DNA from: Ramlibacter sp. WS9
Lineage (GTDB): Bacteria > Pseudomonadota > Gammaproteobacteria > Burkholderiales > Burkholderiaceae_C
Assembly (NCBI RefSeq): GCF_003797765.1
Contig: NZ_RKMB01000004.1
Coordinates: 248,001-312,000 of the forward strand
Direction of reading: 5' to 3'
DNA length: 64,000 nucleotides
A model generated the notes under the pieces. The model was not told the DNA's origin. It did not search any database and saw only the letters and a program-made list of their open reading frames with translations. Position 1 is the first letter of the stretch. Every line of letters starts with the position of its first letter. Shown here piece by piece: positions 15,597-55,078 of this stretch. A program made the translations under genes and the position numbers.

Positions 15597-15887
15597 TTGC
15601 AAGGCAGGTCTGGCGCGGTCAACCTGGCGCGCATCGACCTCACGTCGATCCGCCTGGTGGTGCTTTGTGCCGAAACCGGTTCGCTCTCGGCGGCCGCCAG
15701 GCTCGCGCACCTCTCCATTTCAGGCGCGAGCCACAGGCTGAGCTTTCTCGAAGAGTCACTGGGCACGACACTGTTCGAGCGCCACCGGCGAGGGCTGCGG
15801 CCTACGCGCGGTGGGCAGATGGTCGCAAGCGACGGCCGGCTCATGCTCACCCTGCTGGAGAATTTGGTCAATAGCCTGATTGAATAG
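15597..15887 (+). pseudogene. LysR-type regulator stub: DNA-binding domain only
   Basis: 96 codons from a TTG at 15597. The sequence is a recognisable LysR winged helix (IDLTSIRLVVLCAETGSLSA, SISGASHRLSFLEESLGTTL, FERHRRGLRPTRGG) plus the linker helix, then a stop. A complete LysR protein is about 300 residues, and nothing after 15887 resembles the effector domain in any frame. It is probably the remnant of a deleted regulator. A small functional DNA-binding protein is the alternative. Confidence 0.6.
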
Positions 15888-16166
15888 CTCCCGGCCGCGC
15901 GTCCCCTGCCTCTTTATTGAGCGCCGCCCGCCAGCCCAATGCTGGCGCGGGTTTCGCGGGTTGTCCCTTGACCTATCCACAGCCTCACCCACACCTGCCG
16001 TGGGTAACTTCCATGCCTGCGCGGGAAACGGCCCCGCAAATGGTTTCTAATACGGGTCCGCAACGGACCCTCGCGTGTTTCGAGGGGCAGCGCCAGCCGC
16101 TGTTCGTGCCACTCATTGCCAACCCCCACAAAGATTTGAAGCGCCCATCGGCGCGAAGGAATTTTT
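15888..16166. other. Gene-free spacer with two perfect hairpins
   Basis: 279 bases with no credible gene. Two perfect stems occur: cgccagc/gctggcg at 15929-15935 and 15941-15947 (5-base loop), and gggtccg/cggaccc at 16054-16060 and 16064-16070 (loop CAA). Neither is followed by a clear T tract, so they are weak terminator candidates. A good ribosome-binding sequence (aagga) lies just before the TTG at 16167. Confidence 0.5.
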
Positions 16167-16826
16167 TTGCGCTGGAACATCGACAGTTCAAGGCTCGTCC
16201 GCTTGCTGAGCGGCTGGGCACCCCTGGACGCGCATGCGCCCGGGATGGACATTGCCGAGCGGCTGGGCCTGTGGGTGAGCGCGTTCGACGCCATCGGCTT
16301 GCAGGCGGCACAGCAGTCGATCATGACCTTGACACGTGCTGCGCCGGCCAGTCCACCGAGACCTGTCCAGGCATGCGCCAAATCCGTCGCGGAAGATCTT
16401 GTGCGCGTGCGCACGACCCTGGCCCATCTCATCGCCAAGGAAGCTGACTCGCTCACTGCGGACGACACAAGCTACGCCCTCTATCACCAGCTTCATCTGA
16501 GGCTGCAGCGTGAAATGGAACAGGCGATCGCATCGCTGCGTGACCGCGTCCGCCAGACCCTGAGTCGAATCTCGCCGCGCCTGCGGCAGCTCGCCGCGCT
16601 CGATGCGGTGCTCGAGCAGGTGATTGCCCCACGCGAACAAGCGCTGCTGCCCACGACATCCACGCTGATGGCGAGACGCTACGAGCAACTGCGCGCTACC
16701 GAGGGTGGGCTCGATGGCTTTGCCAACGAGTGGCGCCAGGCGTTGCTGTCGGAGCTCGACCTGCGGCTGGAGCCCGTGACGGGCCTTGTCGACGCGCTGC
16801 GCAACGAGCCAATGAATCCACAATGA
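16167..16826 (+). CDS. DUF3348-like protein, first gene of the stator-like cluster
   Basis: 219 residues from a TTG at 16167, chosen because aagga ends 7 bases upstream and because the family begins with a short arm then SSRLVRLLSGW. The protein is soluble and mainly helical, with heptad-like stretches at about residues 85-150 (YHQLHLRLQREMEQAIASLR). I recognise it as DUF3348, a family of unknown function that in betaproteobacteria travels with DUF802, OmpA and DUF2894 genes, as here. Its stop overlaps the next start (ATGA), so the four genes form one translationally coupled unit. It may be a cytoplasmic adaptor for the membrane complex (inference). Confidence 0.8.
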   Translation: MRWNIDSSRLVRLLSGWAPLDAHAPGMDIAERLGLWVSAFDAIGLQAAQQSIMTLTRAAPASPPRPVQACAKSVAEDLVRVRTTLAHLIAKEADSLTADDTSYALYHQLHLRLQREMEQAIASLRDRVRQTLSRISPRLRQLAALDAVLEQVIAPREQALLPTTSTLMARRYEQLRATEGGLDGFANEWRQALLSELDLRLEPVTGLVDALRNEPMNPQ

Positions 16827-18739
16827 ACAAGCATTTCTTTTCGGCGGCGTTTGCCGCGGGGCTGGCGGCCGTGGGCTGGGTCGGCTGGGGCTTTGTGGGC
16901 TCGAGCTGGCTCGCACTGTTGATGACCGCGGTGATCGGCGGCGTCTACCTGCTCGGCGCGTTCGAGCTGAGGCAGTTCCGCGCGGCAACAGCGGCGTTGG
17001 CATCGGCGATGTCCAACATTCCCCAGCCGATGGCCGGCCTCGGCCAGTGGCTCGACAAGGTACCCGCAACCCTGCGCAACGCCGTGCGCCTGCGCGTCGA
17101 AGGCGAACGCAGCAGCCTGCCCGGGCCGGCGCTCACGCCTTACCTGGTGGGCTTGCTGGTGATGCTCGGCATGCTGGGCACTTTCCTCGGCATGGTCGTC
17201 ACCTTCAAGGGCGCCGTGTTCGCACTTGAAGGCTCGACCGATCTGCAGGCCATCCGCTCGGCGCTGGCCGCGCCCATCAAGGGGCTGGGCCTGTCGTTCG
17301 GCGCATCGGTGGCCGGGGTGGCGGCTTCGGCCATGCTGGGTTTGATGTCGGCCATCAGCCGACGTGAACGGCTGGAAGTTGCGCGCCAACTGGACGGCCT
17401 GATCGCGGGCGACTTGCGGCCGTTCTCGCTTGTTCATCAGCGTGAAGAGACGTTCAAGGCCCTTCAGGTGCAAGCGCGCGCATTGCCCGAGGTGCTCGAC
17501 CGGCTCGACGCGATGACGGAGCGCATCGAACGGCGCAGCCAGCAACTGGACGAGCAACTGCTGGAGCGGCAGGCCCAATTCCAGCGCGAAGTGACGATTG
17601 CTTTCACGGACTTGGCCCACAGCGTGGGCGCCTCGCTCAAGGACAGCCTGGAAGCCAGCGCCAGGACGGCCGCGGAGAGCATCCGGCCCGTGGCCGAGTC
17701 GACACTGACGCAGATTGCGCAGGAATCGCGGCACATGCAGGAACGCCTGGGCGATGTAGCGAAAGCGCAGGTCGACGCCTTGTCGCAGCAGTTCAATGCG
17801 CTGCTGGCGTCTGTCGATGACAGCCTCGCCCGCACGCAATCCGACCATGCCCTGGCGCAGCAACGGATGCTGCAGGCCTGGGCCGACAACACCAGCGAAC
17901 AGACGACCCGCACGGCACGGCTGCTGGGCGAATCGACTGAACTGGTTCGATCGCGCGCCGAAGTCGAGGCCCGCTGGATCGAGCAGCACGGCCTGCGCAT
18001 GGACCAGCTGTCGGGCCTGTGGCGCTCGGAACTGGCCGCGCTGCGGCATGACGAAGACGTTCGAGGCCAAGCCGCGGTCGACAGATTGGGTGAATTGCAA
18101 GCCGCCGTCGCGCGGCACCTCGCAACGCTGGGTGCCGCGTTGGAAGAACCCCTGAGCCGGCTGCTGCAGACCGCCTCCGAGGTTCCCCAAGCGGCCTCCG
18201 GCGTGATCGCGCAGCTGCGGCAGGAAATGAGCCGCCTGGCCGAACGCGACAACCTCGCACTGCAGGAGCGCACGGTCTTGCTCGAACAGCTGGGCGTGCT
18301 GCTGCAGACGGTCAACCAGGCCGCCGGCGAGCAACGCGGGGCCATCGAAGCGATGCTGGCCTCGGCCTCCTCGGTGATGAACCAGGCCGGCACGCAGTTT
18401 TCGCAGGCATTGGATACGCACTCGGGCAAGGCGGCCGAGATGGCGGCGCACATCAGCGGCAGCGCACAGGAGCTTTCGGGTCTGGCCGGGGCCTTCGGCC
18501 AAAGCGTGCAGCTGTTCCAGGCGAGCAACGAGAAGCTCACGGAGAGCCTGCGGCACATCGAAGCGTCCATCAACCGTTCCACGGCGCGCAGCGACGAGCA
18601 ACTGGCCTATTACGTCGCACAAGCCCGCGAAGTCATCGACTTGAGCATTTCCTCGCAGCAGGGCCTGTTCGAAAACCTGCGCCAGTTGCAAGGCCGCCAG
18701 GGCAAGGCTGTCGCGTTGGCCGCAGAGGAGCGTGAATGA
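16823..18739 (+). CDS. DUF802-like membrane protein: MotA/ExbB-type core with a very long helical tail
   Basis: 638 residues from the ATG at 16823. Four hydrophobic segments lie at about 5-25, 28-46, 104-128 and 155-178. The third contains LVMLGMLGTFLGMVVTFKG, close to the GLLGTxxGM hallmark of ExbB/TolQ/MotA stators. The fourth (GLSFGASVAGVAASAMLGL) has their small-residue pattern. Residues about 180-638 form a long Gln/Glu/Ala/Arg-rich helical tail in the cytoplasm. A stator core plus long cytoplasmic tail is the architecture of ZorA in Zorya defence systems. The MotB-like partner is encoded next (ATGA overlap). It is likely an ion-driven inner-membrane motor; its function is unknown. Confidence 0.8.
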   Translation: MNKHFFSAAFAAGLAAVGWVGWGFVGSSWLALLMTAVIGGVYLLGAFELRQFRAATAALASAMSNIPQPMAGLGQWLDKVPATLRNAVRLRVEGERSSLPGPALTPYLVGLLVMLGMLGTFLGMVVTFKGAVFALEGSTDLQAIRSALAAPIKGLGLSFGASVAGVAASAMLGLMSAISRRERLEVARQLDGLIAGDLRPFSLVHQREETFKALQVQARALPEVLDRLDAMTERIERRSQQLDEQLLERQAQFQREVTIAFTDLAHSVGASLKDSLEASARTAAESIRPVAESTLTQIAQESRHMQERLGDVAKAQVDALSQQFNALLASVDDSLARTQSDHALAQQRMLQAWADNTSEQTTRTARLLGESTELVRSRAEVEARWIEQHGLRMDQLSGLWRSELAALRHDEDVRGQAAVDRLGELQAAVARHLATLGAALEEPLSRLLQTASEVPQAASGVIAQLRQEMSRLAERDNLALQERTVLLEQLGVLLQTVNQAAGEQRGAIEAMLASASSVMNQAGTQFSQALDTHSGKAAEMAAHISGSAQELSGLAGAFGQSVQLFQASNEKLTESLRHIEASINRSTARSDEQLAYYVAQAREVIDLSISSQQGLFENLRQLQGRQGKAVALAAEERE

Positions 18740-19401
18740 TCGAGGACGGCGACGCCGACGCCGCACAGTCCGCGCCGATCTGGGCAGTGTTCGGCGACCT
18801 CATGTCGGGCCTGCTCGGCGCGTTCGTGCTGATTTTGGTGGGCGTGCTGGTGGTGCAGATGGACCTGGTGGCCACGTTGAATGCCGAGGTCGAGAAGCGC
18901 CGGGTCGAAGAGCAGCGGCGCATGGCTTTGGAAAAGGCGCTGGCCATTCCGCTTGCGTCCGGCCGCGTGACGCTGAACAACGGCCGCATCGGCATCAGCG
19001 GCAGCGTGCTGTTCCCGGTGAACTCGGACCAGTTGCGGCCCGAGGGGCGGTTGCTGCTCCAGAGCCTGGTTCACCCGCTTCGTGTGTACTTGAGCGAGCG
19101 GGGCGAGATGCTGATGGTCAGCGGCTTTACCGATGACAAGCAGATCCACGAAGGCAACCGCCGGTTCGCGGACAACCTGGAGCTGTCGGCCCAGCGAGCG
19201 CTCACGGTGACTCGCGCGTTGATCGAGGAAGGCATGCCCTCCGCGCAGGTCTTCGCCGCGGCGTTCGGTGCCGAACAGCCGGTTGCGCCCAACGCGAGTG
19301 AAGACGGCCGCGCGCTGAATCGTCGTGTGGAGATGGCGCCTGTCCCCAAGTCGGCCGGCGCCAATGGTTCCGTCACTTCATCGCGCCCCGCCACGCCATG
19401 A
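18736..19401 (+). CDS. MotB/ZorB-like OmpA-domain protein, stator partner
   Basis: 221 residues. A single N-terminal membrane segment at about 15-37 is preceded by the motif WAVFGDLMSGLLGAF, whose Asp21 sits where MotB/ExbD/ZorB carry the essential ion-binding Asp. A short helical linker follows, then an OmpA peptidoglycan-binding domain at about 85-205 (ISGSVLFPVNSDQL, MVSGFTDDKQ, NRRVEM). The domain would anchor the complex in the wall. Start and stop both overlap neighbouring genes (ATGA at 18736-18739 and at 19398-19401). With the upstream protein this forms a complete MotAB-type pair. Confidence 0.85.
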   Translation: MIEDGDADAAQSAPIWAVFGDLMSGLLGAFVLILVGVLVVQMDLVATLNAEVEKRRVEEQRRMALEKALAIPLASGRVTLNNGRIGISGSVLFPVNSDQLRPEGRLLLQSLVHPLRVYLSERGEMLMVSGFTDDKQIHEGNRRFADNLELSAQRALTVTRALIEEGMPSAQVFAAAFGAEQPVAPNASEDGRALNRRVEMAPVPKSAGANGSVTSSRPATP

Positions 19402-19817
19402 GTGAGAGCAGGCAGTTCCAAGCGGGCAGCTCGCCGCTGGCGCAGCTGAACCATTACATCCGCTCTGCCAGGGCGGCGGCCCACGAGAAGACGCCGCTGC
19501 TGGATGAGACGCTGGACGAGCGCGAGCTCTTGAGCGCACGGCGCTTCCGGCAAGCGTGGGAAGCTTGCCGAACGCACGATGATGTGGAAGAAGCGATTGC
19601 AAGAAAGCCCGCCAACGCCGGCCCGCTCAACTCGCACGTGTTGGTGCTGCAGGCCCTGGGCATGATGCAAACGCTGTCGCCTGAGTACCTGCGGCGCTTC
19701 CTGGCGCATGTGGAGGCGCTGCAGTGGCTGGAGCTGGCGCGTGACAAATACCCGCGTCCGCAGGCGGCACAGGCCAAGGCCGCGAAGCCAGCGCGGCGGA
19801 GCCGGCAGAAAAAGTAA
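19398..19817 (+). CDS. DUF2894-like small cytoplasmic protein
   Basis: 139 residues, soluble and helical. The N-terminal part (SPLAQLNHYIRSARAAAHE) is followed by ELLSARRFRQAWEACRTHDD and a central segment ending SPEYLRRFLAHVEALQWLEL. The last 25 residues are Lys/Ala/Arg-rich, suggesting nucleic-acid or membrane-surface contact. I recognise it as DUF2894, function unknown, the usual last member of the DUF3348/DUF802/OmpA unit. It overlaps the OmpA gene by ATGA and must be made with it. Confidence 0.8.
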   Translation: MSESRQFQAGSSPLAQLNHYIRSARAAAHEKTPLLDETLDERELLSARRFRQAWEACRTHDDVEEAIARKPANAGPLNSHVLVLQALGMMQTLSPEYLRRFLAHVEALQWLELARDKYPRPQAAQAKAAKPARRSRQKK

Positions 19818-20570: not shown

Positions 20571-21455
20571 ATGACCACGAGCACACCCCAAGCAACGGCC
20601 GCCACTTGGAAAGATGTTCCAACGCGGACGGTCCCCGGCCACGGCGTGAGGTTCGCCTACCGCGAACTGGGCACGGAAAACCCCGGCCCGCCGGTCGTGT
20701 TCCTCATCCACCTGGCCGCCGTCCTGGACAACTGGGACCCTCGGGTCGTCGACGGCTTCGCGAAGAAGCACCGCGTGATCACATTCGACAACCGGGGTGT
20801 CGGCGCCTCCAGCGGAACCCCTTCGGCGTCGATCGAGGAGATGGCCCGTGACGCCATCGCTTTCATCAAGGCCATGGGCCTTGGCCAGGTCGACCTGTTC
20901 GGGTTTTCGATGGGCGGGATGGTCGCGCAGGCGATGGTGCAGATGGAACCGCAACTCGTGCGCAAGATGATCATCACGGGGACAGGCCCCGCCGGCGGCG
21001 AAGGCATCAGCCAGGTGGCACGTGTGACCTACTTCGACATGTTGCGCGGCTGGCTCACGTTCCAGGATCCGAAGCAGTTCCTGTTCTTCACGCGGACGCC
21101 CTCAGGTATCCGCGCGGGCAAGGAGTTTCTGCAGCGATTGAAAGAACGCTCAGGTGACCGCGACAAGGCAATCACCCTGGCCGCGCTGCAGGCCCAGCTG
21201 AAAGCGCTGCGCCGCTGGGGCGAACAAGAACCGGCGGACCTGTCGAAGATTCATCACCCCGTCCTCGTCGCGAACGGCGACAGCGATCGCATGGTTCCCA
21301 GCAAGAACACGCACGATCTGGCGCAACGCCTTCCGAACAGCGAACTCGTCATCTATCCCGATTCCGGGCATGGCGCGGTGTTCCAGTTTCACGCCGACTT
21401 CGTGCCCAGGGCGCTGGAATTCCTGGCACGGCGAGTTAGTAGTTCACCCGGTTGA
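20571..21455 (+). CDS. Alpha/beta hydrolase
   Basis: 294 residues from the ATG at 20571, preceded by aggaaa. The nucleophile elbow is GFSMGG with Ser113. The acid is in NGDSDRMVP and the catalytic His in DSGHGAVFQF. The oxyanion region reads IHLAAVLDNWDPRVV. Many such hydrolases, often paired with a TetR regulator, act on esters or lactones, but the substrate is unknown. Its last 20 bases overlap the convergent FG-GAP gene. Confidence 0.88.
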   Translation: MTTSTPQATAATWKDVPTRTVPGHGVRFAYRELGTENPGPPVVFLIHLAAVLDNWDPRVVDGFAKKHRVITFDNRGVGASSGTPSASIEEMARDAIAFIKAMGLGQVDLFGFSMGGMVAQAMVQMEPQLVRKMIITGTGPAGGEGISQVARVTYFDMLRGWLTFQDPKQFLFFTRTPSGIRAGKEFLQRLKERSGDRDKAITLAALQAQLKALRRWGEQEPADLSKIHHPVLVANGDSDRMVPSKNTHDLAQRLPNSELVIYPDSGHGAVFQFHADFVPRALEFLARRVSSSPG

Positions 21456-23976
21456 TCCCCGCCCAGATCCCGTTGCCCAGATAGAAATCGGCAGGCTGAA
21501 CCGTGGCCCAGACGTCGGACATCATGCCCTGCGGCGGAAAGCTCAACAGCAGGCCGTCGCCGGTGGCGATGGCGTACGCGTAGGGCTCTCCACCCGTCGA
21601 CGTGGTCCAGCCCGCCCAGCCCGGCGTGTCAGCCCAGCGCGCCCCGACCAGATGCGAGTCGCTGGTCTGCTGGTAGTAGATGGTGTAGGCAGCCGGTATC
21701 ACCACCGCATAGAACTGGATGCGGTTGCCGGCTTGCGTGGCGGCCGCCATGTCCGTGGCTACGTCGTCGGTGGAACTGCCCGGCGTAGGCCATGCCCAGC
21801 CTTGCTGGGCCAGCGAGGCCACCATGCCGGCCTTGACGAAATCGCCTGCGATCTGGTTTTGCCCCAGCGCATTGAGTTGCGAGACATTGCCGAATAGCAT
21901 GTCGATGATGCCTTGCACGCCGGTATAGGCCACCTGCGGCGCCCCGTACTGGTCATTCACCAGCAGTGCTTGCGCGGTCAACGCCAGGCCCGAGCCCTTC
22001 GCTGAACTGGCGGTGGCAAGCGCCGGAACGCCGGAGGCCAGCGCCGACATGAGGTTCTGCCACGAGAAGCTCACCTGCGGCGCGTCGCTGGAAGGAGCGA
22101 CCATGCCGATCACGTACGCGAGATCGGCATCCATCTGCGTGTCGATCGCCGCCGCCACCGTGAGGAGGTTCGCGTACAGGCCATAGACGCCGGCCAGGTT
22201 CTGCAGCTCGGCGATCAGGTCTTGCTGCATCGCCTGCCAGATGGCCTGCGCGGCTTCCATCGTTCCGGGGAGCGTGCCTGGCGGGAGCAGCGCGCTCAAG
22301 TCCATGTTCTGGACCTCCTGGATCCAGCGCTGCGCATCCCCCACGGCATTCGTCTTTGTGTACAACGAGCGAATGTCGCCGTCTTCGCAGCCGTTCATCT
22401 CGTTGCTGGCGGCGGCATAGATCTGTGCCTGCAACGAACCGGACGTGCCGGAAAACGGCGGGTAGGCACACTGCGGCCCCGACGCGACAAGCGAAAGCCC
22501 CCAGCCGGGAAAGGCCGGGGGACCGTTGGAGCCGGCCTGCCAGGCGCAGGTGGCGTTGCCGTTGGCGTCGAACGCGAGCAGGCCGCAACTGCCATAGCCC
22601 GCCTTGTACGCGAGCAGCTGCTGCTGCCCCAAGCCGGGCCCGGCCACCACCATGTACTGGTCGTCTTCGGTGTTCCACGATGACACGCCGCCCGCACCGG
22701 GAAACGACGAGCCCTGTGCCACCCACTCGACGATCAGCTGCGAGCTGTCCCAGCTCACGGCCGCGATGGAACCCGGTTGTGCGAACAGCACCGAGGGCGG
22801 CCCGATTTGCAGGGATGCCAACACCAGCGTGTCGCCGCTGGTCAGCGGCAGGTCGGTGCCGCCCGGGTTCGGAATGGCCTGGTCGCCGGTCCAGAGCACC
22901 TGCAGTTGGGGCGAGACAGGGTCGTTGTTGAACTGCGCCACCGCGACGATGCAGTCGTCGGTATTGAACAGCACCAGCGAATCCGCGTAGTACGCACCGA
23001 CCGCAAGTTGGGCCGGCGCGAGCTGGTCGGAGGCCTGCAGGGGCCAGGCGCCACTCCCCTGCTGGTTCAGCAGCTCGTCGGAGACAGACCAGACCAGCGA
23101 CGGCGCGTTGGCATCGGAGTCCCATTGCACCAGGCCCAGGGCCTGGCCGGGGCGCGAGACCAGGATGGAATCGAAGCCCTGGCCGACCACGTCCATCGTC
23201 CACCACGCGTCGCCCGTCTCCAGGGTCCAGCCGGCTGCGCCGCCGGCGCCGGGCACTTCCGCGGTGCCCGCGCTCCACACGGCGTTGAAGCCGTCGCCGG
23301 CCCAGGCCAGCACGGCCAACCCATACGGGCTCGACGCGAACATCGACAGCTGGCCACTGGCGGTGCCCAGCCCGAACTGCACCGGCAGGTAGCTGTCGCC
23401 GTCGTCGGGCCACCACGTACTGGCGCTTCCGGTGCCGGTGGCGCCGGAAGCGCTCCACCACACATACAAAGCGTCGCCGTTCCACTTGAACACGCCGATC
23501 CGCGCGTTCTGCGAGGCGAAGATCTCGTCCACGCCGTCGCCGTCCACGTCCGCCGCGTAGTACTTGTCGGTGCCGGAGACAGTCCACGCCTGCGTGCCGG
23601 GGAACCCGCCGGCCGAGACGGGCATGGGCTGTATCGAGCTGGTGGTGTTCCAGATCAACACCGGTACCTGGGCGCCCTCGTTCAACCCGGACCACTGCGG
23701 GCTGAGAGTGTCCCAACCGCACATCTGGACCAGGCCGAGCAATGTTTGCCCCGCGTTCTGCACCAGCATGCACGGCGTCGAGCGCGCGAGGTCCACGGTT
23801 GCCAGAACGACGTCCAGCCCCTGCATCGGCCAGGCAACGGTGGCCGGCAGGCCCTGGAAGTCGGGTCCGACGAAAGTGGGATCCGACGATAAGGCCGTGG
23901 CTGCGGTGGCAGCGTCACTGGCGCCGGGCTTGGCGCGAGGACGCCGGACGCGCGACTGCGCCGGGTTGTGTGGCAT
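21436..23976 (-). CDS. Large orphan protein with FG-GAP/VCBS-like repeats, no signal peptide
   Basis: 846 residues from the ATG at 23976, with a strong gggagga site before it. The first 30 residues are basic and Ala-rich, with no hydrophobic signal. From about 45 to 540 the protein is built of repeated blades ending in short W/G/D-rich strands (VLIWNTTSS, FKWNGDALYVWW, VLAWAGDGFNAVW, LVQWDSD, VSWDSSQLIVEW). One Ca-binding type loop, ADVDGDGVDEI, is at about 142-152. This suggests a beta-propeller related to FG-GAP/VCBS repeats. The last 280 residues look helical, then return to strand. I do not recognise a named family, and it has no co-transcribed neighbour. Confidence 0.75.
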   Translation of the reverse strand: MPHNPAQSRVRRPRAKPGASDAATAATALSSDPTFVGPDFQGLPATVAWPMQGLDVVLATVDLARSTPCMLVQNAGQTLLGLVQMCGWDTLSPQWSGLNEGAQVPVLIWNTTSSIQPMPVSAGGFPGTQAWTVSGTDKYYAADVDGDGVDEIFASQNARIGVFKWNGDALYVWWSASGATGTGSASTWWPDDGDSYLPVQFGLGTASGQLSMFASSPYGLAVLAWAGDGFNAVWSAGTAEVPGAGGAAGWTLETGDAWWTMDVVGQGFDSILVSRPGQALGLVQWDSDANAPSLVWSVSDELLNQQGSGAWPLQASDQLAPAQLAVGAYYADSLVLFNTDDCIVAVAQFNNDPVSPQLQVLWTGDQAIPNPGGTDLPLTSGDTLVLASLQIGPPSVLFAQPGSIAAVSWDSSQLIVEWVAQGSSFPGAGGVSSWNTEDDQYMVVAGPGLGQQQLLAYKAGYGSCGLLAFDANGNATCAWQAGSNGPPAFPGWGLSLVASGPQCAYPPFSGTSGSLQAQIYAAASNEMNGCEDGDIRSLYTKTNAVGDAQRWIQEVQNMDLSALLPPGTLPGTMEAAQAIWQAMQQDLIAELQNLAGVYGLYANLLTVAAAIDTQMDADLAYVIGMVAPSSDAPQVSFSWQNLMSALASGVPALATASSAKGSGLALTAQALLVNDQYGAPQVAYTGVQGIIDMLFGNVSQLNALGQNQIAGDFVKAGMVASLAQQGWAWPTPGSSTDDVATDMAAATQAGNRIQFYAVVIPAAYTIYYQQTSDSHLVGARWADTPGWAGWTTSTGGEPYAYAIATGDGLLLSFPPQGMMSDVWATVQPADFYLGNGIWAGINRVNY

Positions 23977-48898: not shown

Positions 48899-54352
<5,454 letters not shown>

Positions 54353-54364
54353 CAGGGCGAAGGA

Positions 54365-55078
<714 letters not shown>

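Follow-up and report, generated by a model that had tools for sequence, protein, structure and literature searches.

The window analysed here, a stretch of 64,000 nt from Ramlibacter sp. WS9 (NZ_RKMB01000004.1, positions 248,001-312,000 of the forward strand), holds at 16167-19817, on the plus strand, four genes in series that code, in this order, for a DUF3348 protein, ZorA, ZorB and a DUF2894 protein, the components of the system known as Zorya type III. An earlier note on this DNA had described four genes joined by serial ATGA overlaps, and the gene calls agree, all three junctions being 4-base ATGA overlaps. The DUF3348 gene (16167-16826, +) codes for 219 amino acids from a TTG start, and direct reading of the sequence finds a ribosome-binding-like site, AAGGA, six bases 5' of that start (16156-16160, +). 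It is followed by zorA (16823-18739, +), whose product of 638 residues combines a stator membrane core with a long cytoplasmic tail, by zorB (18736-19401, +; 221 residues), which codes for one membrane helix and an OmpA-like peptidoglycan domain, and by the DUF2894 gene (19398-19817, +), which codes for a short form of 139 residues. The four-gene arrangement is not due to chance, because the same order, DUF3348-ZorA-ZorB-DUF2894, is found in 60/60 loci of relatives. These loci were picked from DUF3348 matches, with start codons assigned by script; at one of them (L074) DUF2894 was found by tblastn only and at another (L064) it is interrupted by a run of N. The host assembly itself has one DUF3348 match.

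Judged by their sequences, the four genes make up a Zorya type III system, and an ordinary member of the published one. The PADLOC models for this type match ZorA3 (2.8e-234) and ZorB3 (9.4e-109) in adjoining genes, with ZorG3 (the DUF3348 protein; 5.9e-52) and ZorF3 (the DUF2894 protein; 9.7e-36) on either side of zorAB. In Pfam, the same proteins match DUF3348 (PF11828, 4.6e-43), OmpA (8.6e-17, at ZorB residues 92-196) and DUF2894 (PF11445, 2e-29). NCBIfam places ZorB in a family of hypothetical proteins (PRK09040, 3.4e-107), gives the ZorA protein only weak ZorA matches, at 7.7e-4 and worse and far under the cut-off, and has no match for the DUF3348 or the DUF2894 protein. The label DUF802, by which the ZorA protein had first been described, derives from the way relatives are annotated; the window protein itself has no DUF802 match in the Pfam copy searched.

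The name Zorya type III goes back to Payne et al. (2021), who report 6,401 gene pairs with both DUF neighbours (PMC8565338); their text speaks of 'zorBC' pairs, where zorAB seems to be intended. The type III system of Stenotrophomonas nitritireducens, cloned in E. coli BL21-AI, gave significantly lower plaquing for one or more of the phages tested, and a culture with the cloned system did not collapse with phage PVP-SE1 at a multiplicity of infection below 0.1 (PMC8565338). With the anti-phage effect of Zorya type III in print, the DUF802 cluster has a published function, a finding that the earlier note had named as one that would refute its reading, and the four-gene layout is not new. The operon of the window resembles the system of Payne et al. 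(2021) in having all four families clustered in one operon, and differs from it in that its DUF2894 protein is short and covers only positions 73-182 of the 185 in the Pfam profile. The names of the two outer genes are swapped between sources: in Payne et al. (2021) and Mariano et al. (2025) DUF3348 is ZorF and DUF2894 is ZorG, while in PADLOC-DB 2.0.0 DUF3348 is ZorG3 and DUF2894 is ZorF3. The structural paper on the system (PMC11890865) covers types I and II, and in the passages of it considered here Zorya III is named only in the introduction and under distribution.

The motor half of the operon shares with Zorya types I (ZorABCD) and II (ZorABE) a stator core, a membrane Asp, an OmpA domain and a long ZorA tail. 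As had been noticed before, ZorA carries GMLGTFLGM in its stator core, at residues 116-124 (17168-17194, +), and about 450 residues follow the putative membrane core. T120, which lies in this stretch, T127, S162 (17306-17308, +), a hydroxyl residue of the core, and S169 are each invariant in 48/48 rows. The two features claimed for the partner protein are also present: ZorB has the OmpA domain and, at D21 (codon 18796-18798, +), a predicted ion-binding Asp that is invariant in 50/50 rows. The alignments comprise 114 of 120 listed matches, from 469 found (A1), 99 of 120 listed, from 280 found (A2), and 50 (A4) and 48 (A5) of 61 available sequences. Defence by types I and II depends on the tail as well as on the peptidoglycan domain, and there the Asp of ZorB is packed against a ring of Ser/Thr residues that ZorA contributes (PMC11890865).

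Searched against the PDB, a family profile of ZorA built from 48 type III sequences matches the solved type I ZorA (8vvn_C) at 8.4e-10, in an alignment that spans the stator core (profile positions 107-172) and parts of the tail. This is the sole solved stator among the 32 PDB sequences at E values of 1 or below, the rest being mostly helical or repetitive proteins. The ZorB profile matches 8vvn_B (2.7e-8; profile positions 8-207), as well as many MotB-like OmpA domains. The ZorA/ZorB layout that had been read from the DNA is correct. The flagellar MotAB/PomAB stators are similar in that the OmpA domain of ZorB is nearest to MotB-like domains among solved sequences; unlike them, ZorA has a long cytoplasmic tail and no significant match to the Pfam family MotA_ExbB (E 0.19, 11.9 bits versus a cut-off of 22.9). 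When ZorC, ZorD and ZorE were looked for, the operon proteins matched only the ZorA, ZorB, ZorF and ZorG models of PADLOC, together with a weak match to LeoB (0.022), and at 1e-10 the 51 flanking genes match 22 PADLOC families, to which none of the three belongs; these genes were called by script, and a gene may have been missed. The earlier note was thus right that two soluble proteins take the place of ZorC/D/E.

What the operon adds to the known system is one testable lead, a motif near the end of the ZorA tail. The motif, RSDEQLAYYVAQAREVIDLS (20 residues, ZorA 589-608; 18587-18646, +), is identical in 36/48 proteins and present as close variants in the remaining 12, and it is followed by 18-35 residues. 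Its conservation, at 3.16 bits per 20-residue block versus 3.0-3.6 in the membrane core, equals that of the core, and yet it sits on a tail whose length, between the columns of P222 and R589, ranges from 262 to 775 residues (367 in the window). The tail-end sequence of type III ZorA is not that of types I and II. In the 5 rows of type I ZorA, conservation rises less markedly towards the tail end, where the sequence is a different one, and the type III motif does not occur in any of the 10 ZorA1-like frames checked, some of which come from the same genes. A query of 36 residues around the motif matches 27 plasmid records, and in each the match covers the whole query; the records belong to Burkholderia, Caballeronia, Paraburkholderia, Cupriavidus, Aquabacterium, Variovorax and Azoarcus; for the 9 matches with a gene listed, the gene is always a 'DUF802 domain-containing protein'. 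The motif was not found in print by searches that included pieces of it, although a mention in Hu et al. (Nature 2025) is possible; the passages of PMC11890865 considered here hold no word starting with 'tip'. We propose, from the pattern of conservation, that the motif may be a dock for DUF3348 and/or DUF2894. A near-invariant tail end on a very variable tail, in a type that protects against phage without a recognisable nuclease, raises the question of whether the tail serves as a lever bearing a docking head, and of where the effector acts.

The two proteins that would dock there appear to be helical. DUF3348 is modelled as a four-helix bundle (AlphaFold2; predicted local distance difference test, 79.8; predicted template modelling score, 0.75), and the long form of DUF2894 as a confident N-terminal helical bundle followed by a C-terminal part, also helical, that is modelled with moderate confidence. 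Neither model has a significant match in the PDB, and no enzyme or solved fold is matched significantly by either protein. The C-terminal part of DUF2894 contains an invariant loop, A159-G-P-L-N-S-H165 (P0133 numbering). Because the window form starts at profile position 73, and because 8/58 measured relatives are also short (below 160 residues, with starts chosen by script), DUF2894 could apparently do without its N-terminal domain, whereas its conserved C-terminal part seems to be essential, as far as can be judged from sequence. The eight closest database homologues of the window protein have 138-139 residues. DUF3348 and DUF2894 are over the cut-off in the same 134/397 genomes of the family, and none has only one of them; two discordant family genomes are matches under the cut-off. 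A control genome, that of Corynebacterium glutamicum, has DUF2894 over the cut-off and DUF3348 not, which suggests that, beyond the family, the two are not strictly linked.

That no enzyme fold is recognised in DUF3348 or DUF2894 would also suit a scenario in which defence is due to the motor itself, such that active ZorAB leaks ions and kills or stalls the infected cell, the two soluble proteins serving as gates and not as effectors. Payne et al. (2021) proposed that ZorF and ZorG regulate ZorAB, and their discussion recalls abortive infection through proton channels (PMC8565338). However, types I and II need every component, their ZorAB working with nuclease or nickase partners (PMC11890865; PMC12904381), and type III may still have an enzyme whose fold went unrecognised. 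We regard defence by the motor itself as quite unlikely.

We think it probable instead that the operon serves in anti-phage defence as a Zorya type III system, whose ZorA and ZorB subunits, in a 5:2 ratio, would assemble into a rotary motor of the inner membrane that is driven by ions. For type I, a review puts forward the hypothesis that phage entry brings the peptidoglycan nearer to the inner membrane, where ZorB binds it, that ions then flow, and that the motor thereafter recruits the effectors (PMC12904381). By analogy, type III would work as type I does up to the tail. On the model of the published types I and II, phage entry would disturb the envelope, the OmpA domains of ZorB would grip the peptidoglycan, ions would pass D21, and the ZorA ring would turn together with its tail. 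The end of the tail might hold DUF3348 and/or DUF2894; acting there as putative adaptor and effector, where types I and II have ZorC/D/E, these would stop the infection close to the site of entry. A bolder version, which we find rather doubtful, is that of a nuclease-free Zorya, a wall-anchored motor with a rotating tail of variable length and an invariant 20-residue tip for two helical adaptors, in which force or ion flow, and not DNA cutting, would stop the phage.

The distribution of the operon bears on whether it is a defence system at all. DUF3348 is present in 32/60 genomes of the host genus (27/45 of those of good quality), in 135/397 genomes of the family sample (134/388 of good quality; 46/126 genera), and in 8/370 genomes of the class sample, two of which belong to the host's own family. 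The family survey is uneven by genus, three genera (g29, g63 and g65) having six matching genomes each; its genomes without a match are listed in part only, and it gives no rates per genus. Position varies as well. Within 20-kb stretches, a flank gene is common to 16/153 pairs of genomes in the host genus, versus 153/153 pairs when the pgk locus is compared across the same 18 genomes, and on this comparison the operon behaves as an accessory element in the host genus. The flank genes were called with the author's codon-composition script; to keep both counts on one set of genomes, two pgk loci that lie close to contig starts (L122, L133) were excluded, as were three Zorya loci (L061, L067, L073). 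When all 24 loci of the host genus are taken, 27/276 pairs have common flank genes; the gene calls behind this count, and behind the counts for other genera given below, include some antisense frames.

The patchy presence of the operon and its variable position relative to a core-gene control leave the lean of the earlier note, towards housekeeping over defence, unsupported in the host genus. On the housekeeping reading, the four genes would code for an envelope machine like Tol-Pal or ExbBD, whose ion flow manages the cell wall, with the protection from phage seen in E. coli arising as a by-product of overexpression. Against this stand the distribution just described, at the level of genus, family and class, the scatter of the locus, and the directly published protection from phage (PMC8565338). 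We consider the housekeeping reading weakened, and unlikely.

Several observations nevertheless count against the anti-phage reading, and some of them favour housekeeping. One other genus has common flank genes in 15/15 locus pairs; in further genera the counts are 3/3, 6/15, 1/10 and 1/6. For Ralstonia solanacearum, type III Zorya is cited to exemplify a system that is highly conserved (PMC13064858). A housekeeping role would give the same fixed locus and the same conservation, and since other genera hold the operon at a fixed place there is room for a core-like role in some lineages. Nor did the search for a defence island in the window yield one, a result that again fits housekeeping: just 2/51 flanking genes match PADLOC at 1e-10, both about 30 kb from the operon, and the flanks are mostly catabolic and regulatory, transport, catabolic and LysR-type families being the commonest in Pfam. 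In Burkholderia cenocepacia, the response of the Zorya I and III operons to infection was confined to their first gene or first two genes, and Zorya stands outside the authors' list of transcriptionally active systems (PMC12584637, in the parts considered here). As to the DUF2894 protein, 50/58 measured relatives have at least 160 residues, where the window form has 139.

Related DNA also occurs on plasmids. Similar DNA is found in 42 plasmid records, none of which matches more than 80% of the query; many are very large replicons of Burkholderia-type hosts, and by predicted mobility 28 are non-mobilizable, 8 mobilizable and 6 conjugative. For ZorB, there is no match at 1e-20 among 50,697 phage records. 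A comparison of distances was also tried as a sign of horizontal transfer. Between ZorA+ZorB and pgk identities in 20 genomes the Spearman coefficient is 0.03, a value reached by 804/2000 permutations; because core genes, pgk included, give 0.14-0.72 among themselves, the comparison is uninformative and was not used.

As for the surroundings of the operon, a frame of 96 amino acids directly 5' of it (15597-15887) contains only the helix-turn-helix domain of a LysR-type protein and is possibly the remnant of a regulator. A protein of 846 amino acids (21436-23976, -) has no Pfam match at 1e-4 and no PADLOC match at 1e-10. The two flanking genes with PADLOC matches adjoin each other. The first (48899-54352, +) codes for a protein of 1817 amino acids whose first 330 residues or so are kinase-like, with PD-T4-6 as the best PADLOC match (1.5e-32); the second (54365-55078, -) codes for a protein of 237 amino acids that matches mad3 (3.4e-21) and mad8 (1e-12). 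Of the 22 PADLOC families matched in the flanks, 20 fall in the 1817-residue protein and two, mad3 and mad8, in the 237-residue protein, a count fully accounted for when 38/51 flanking genes were rescanned one by one. The two proteins are probably a signalling pair.

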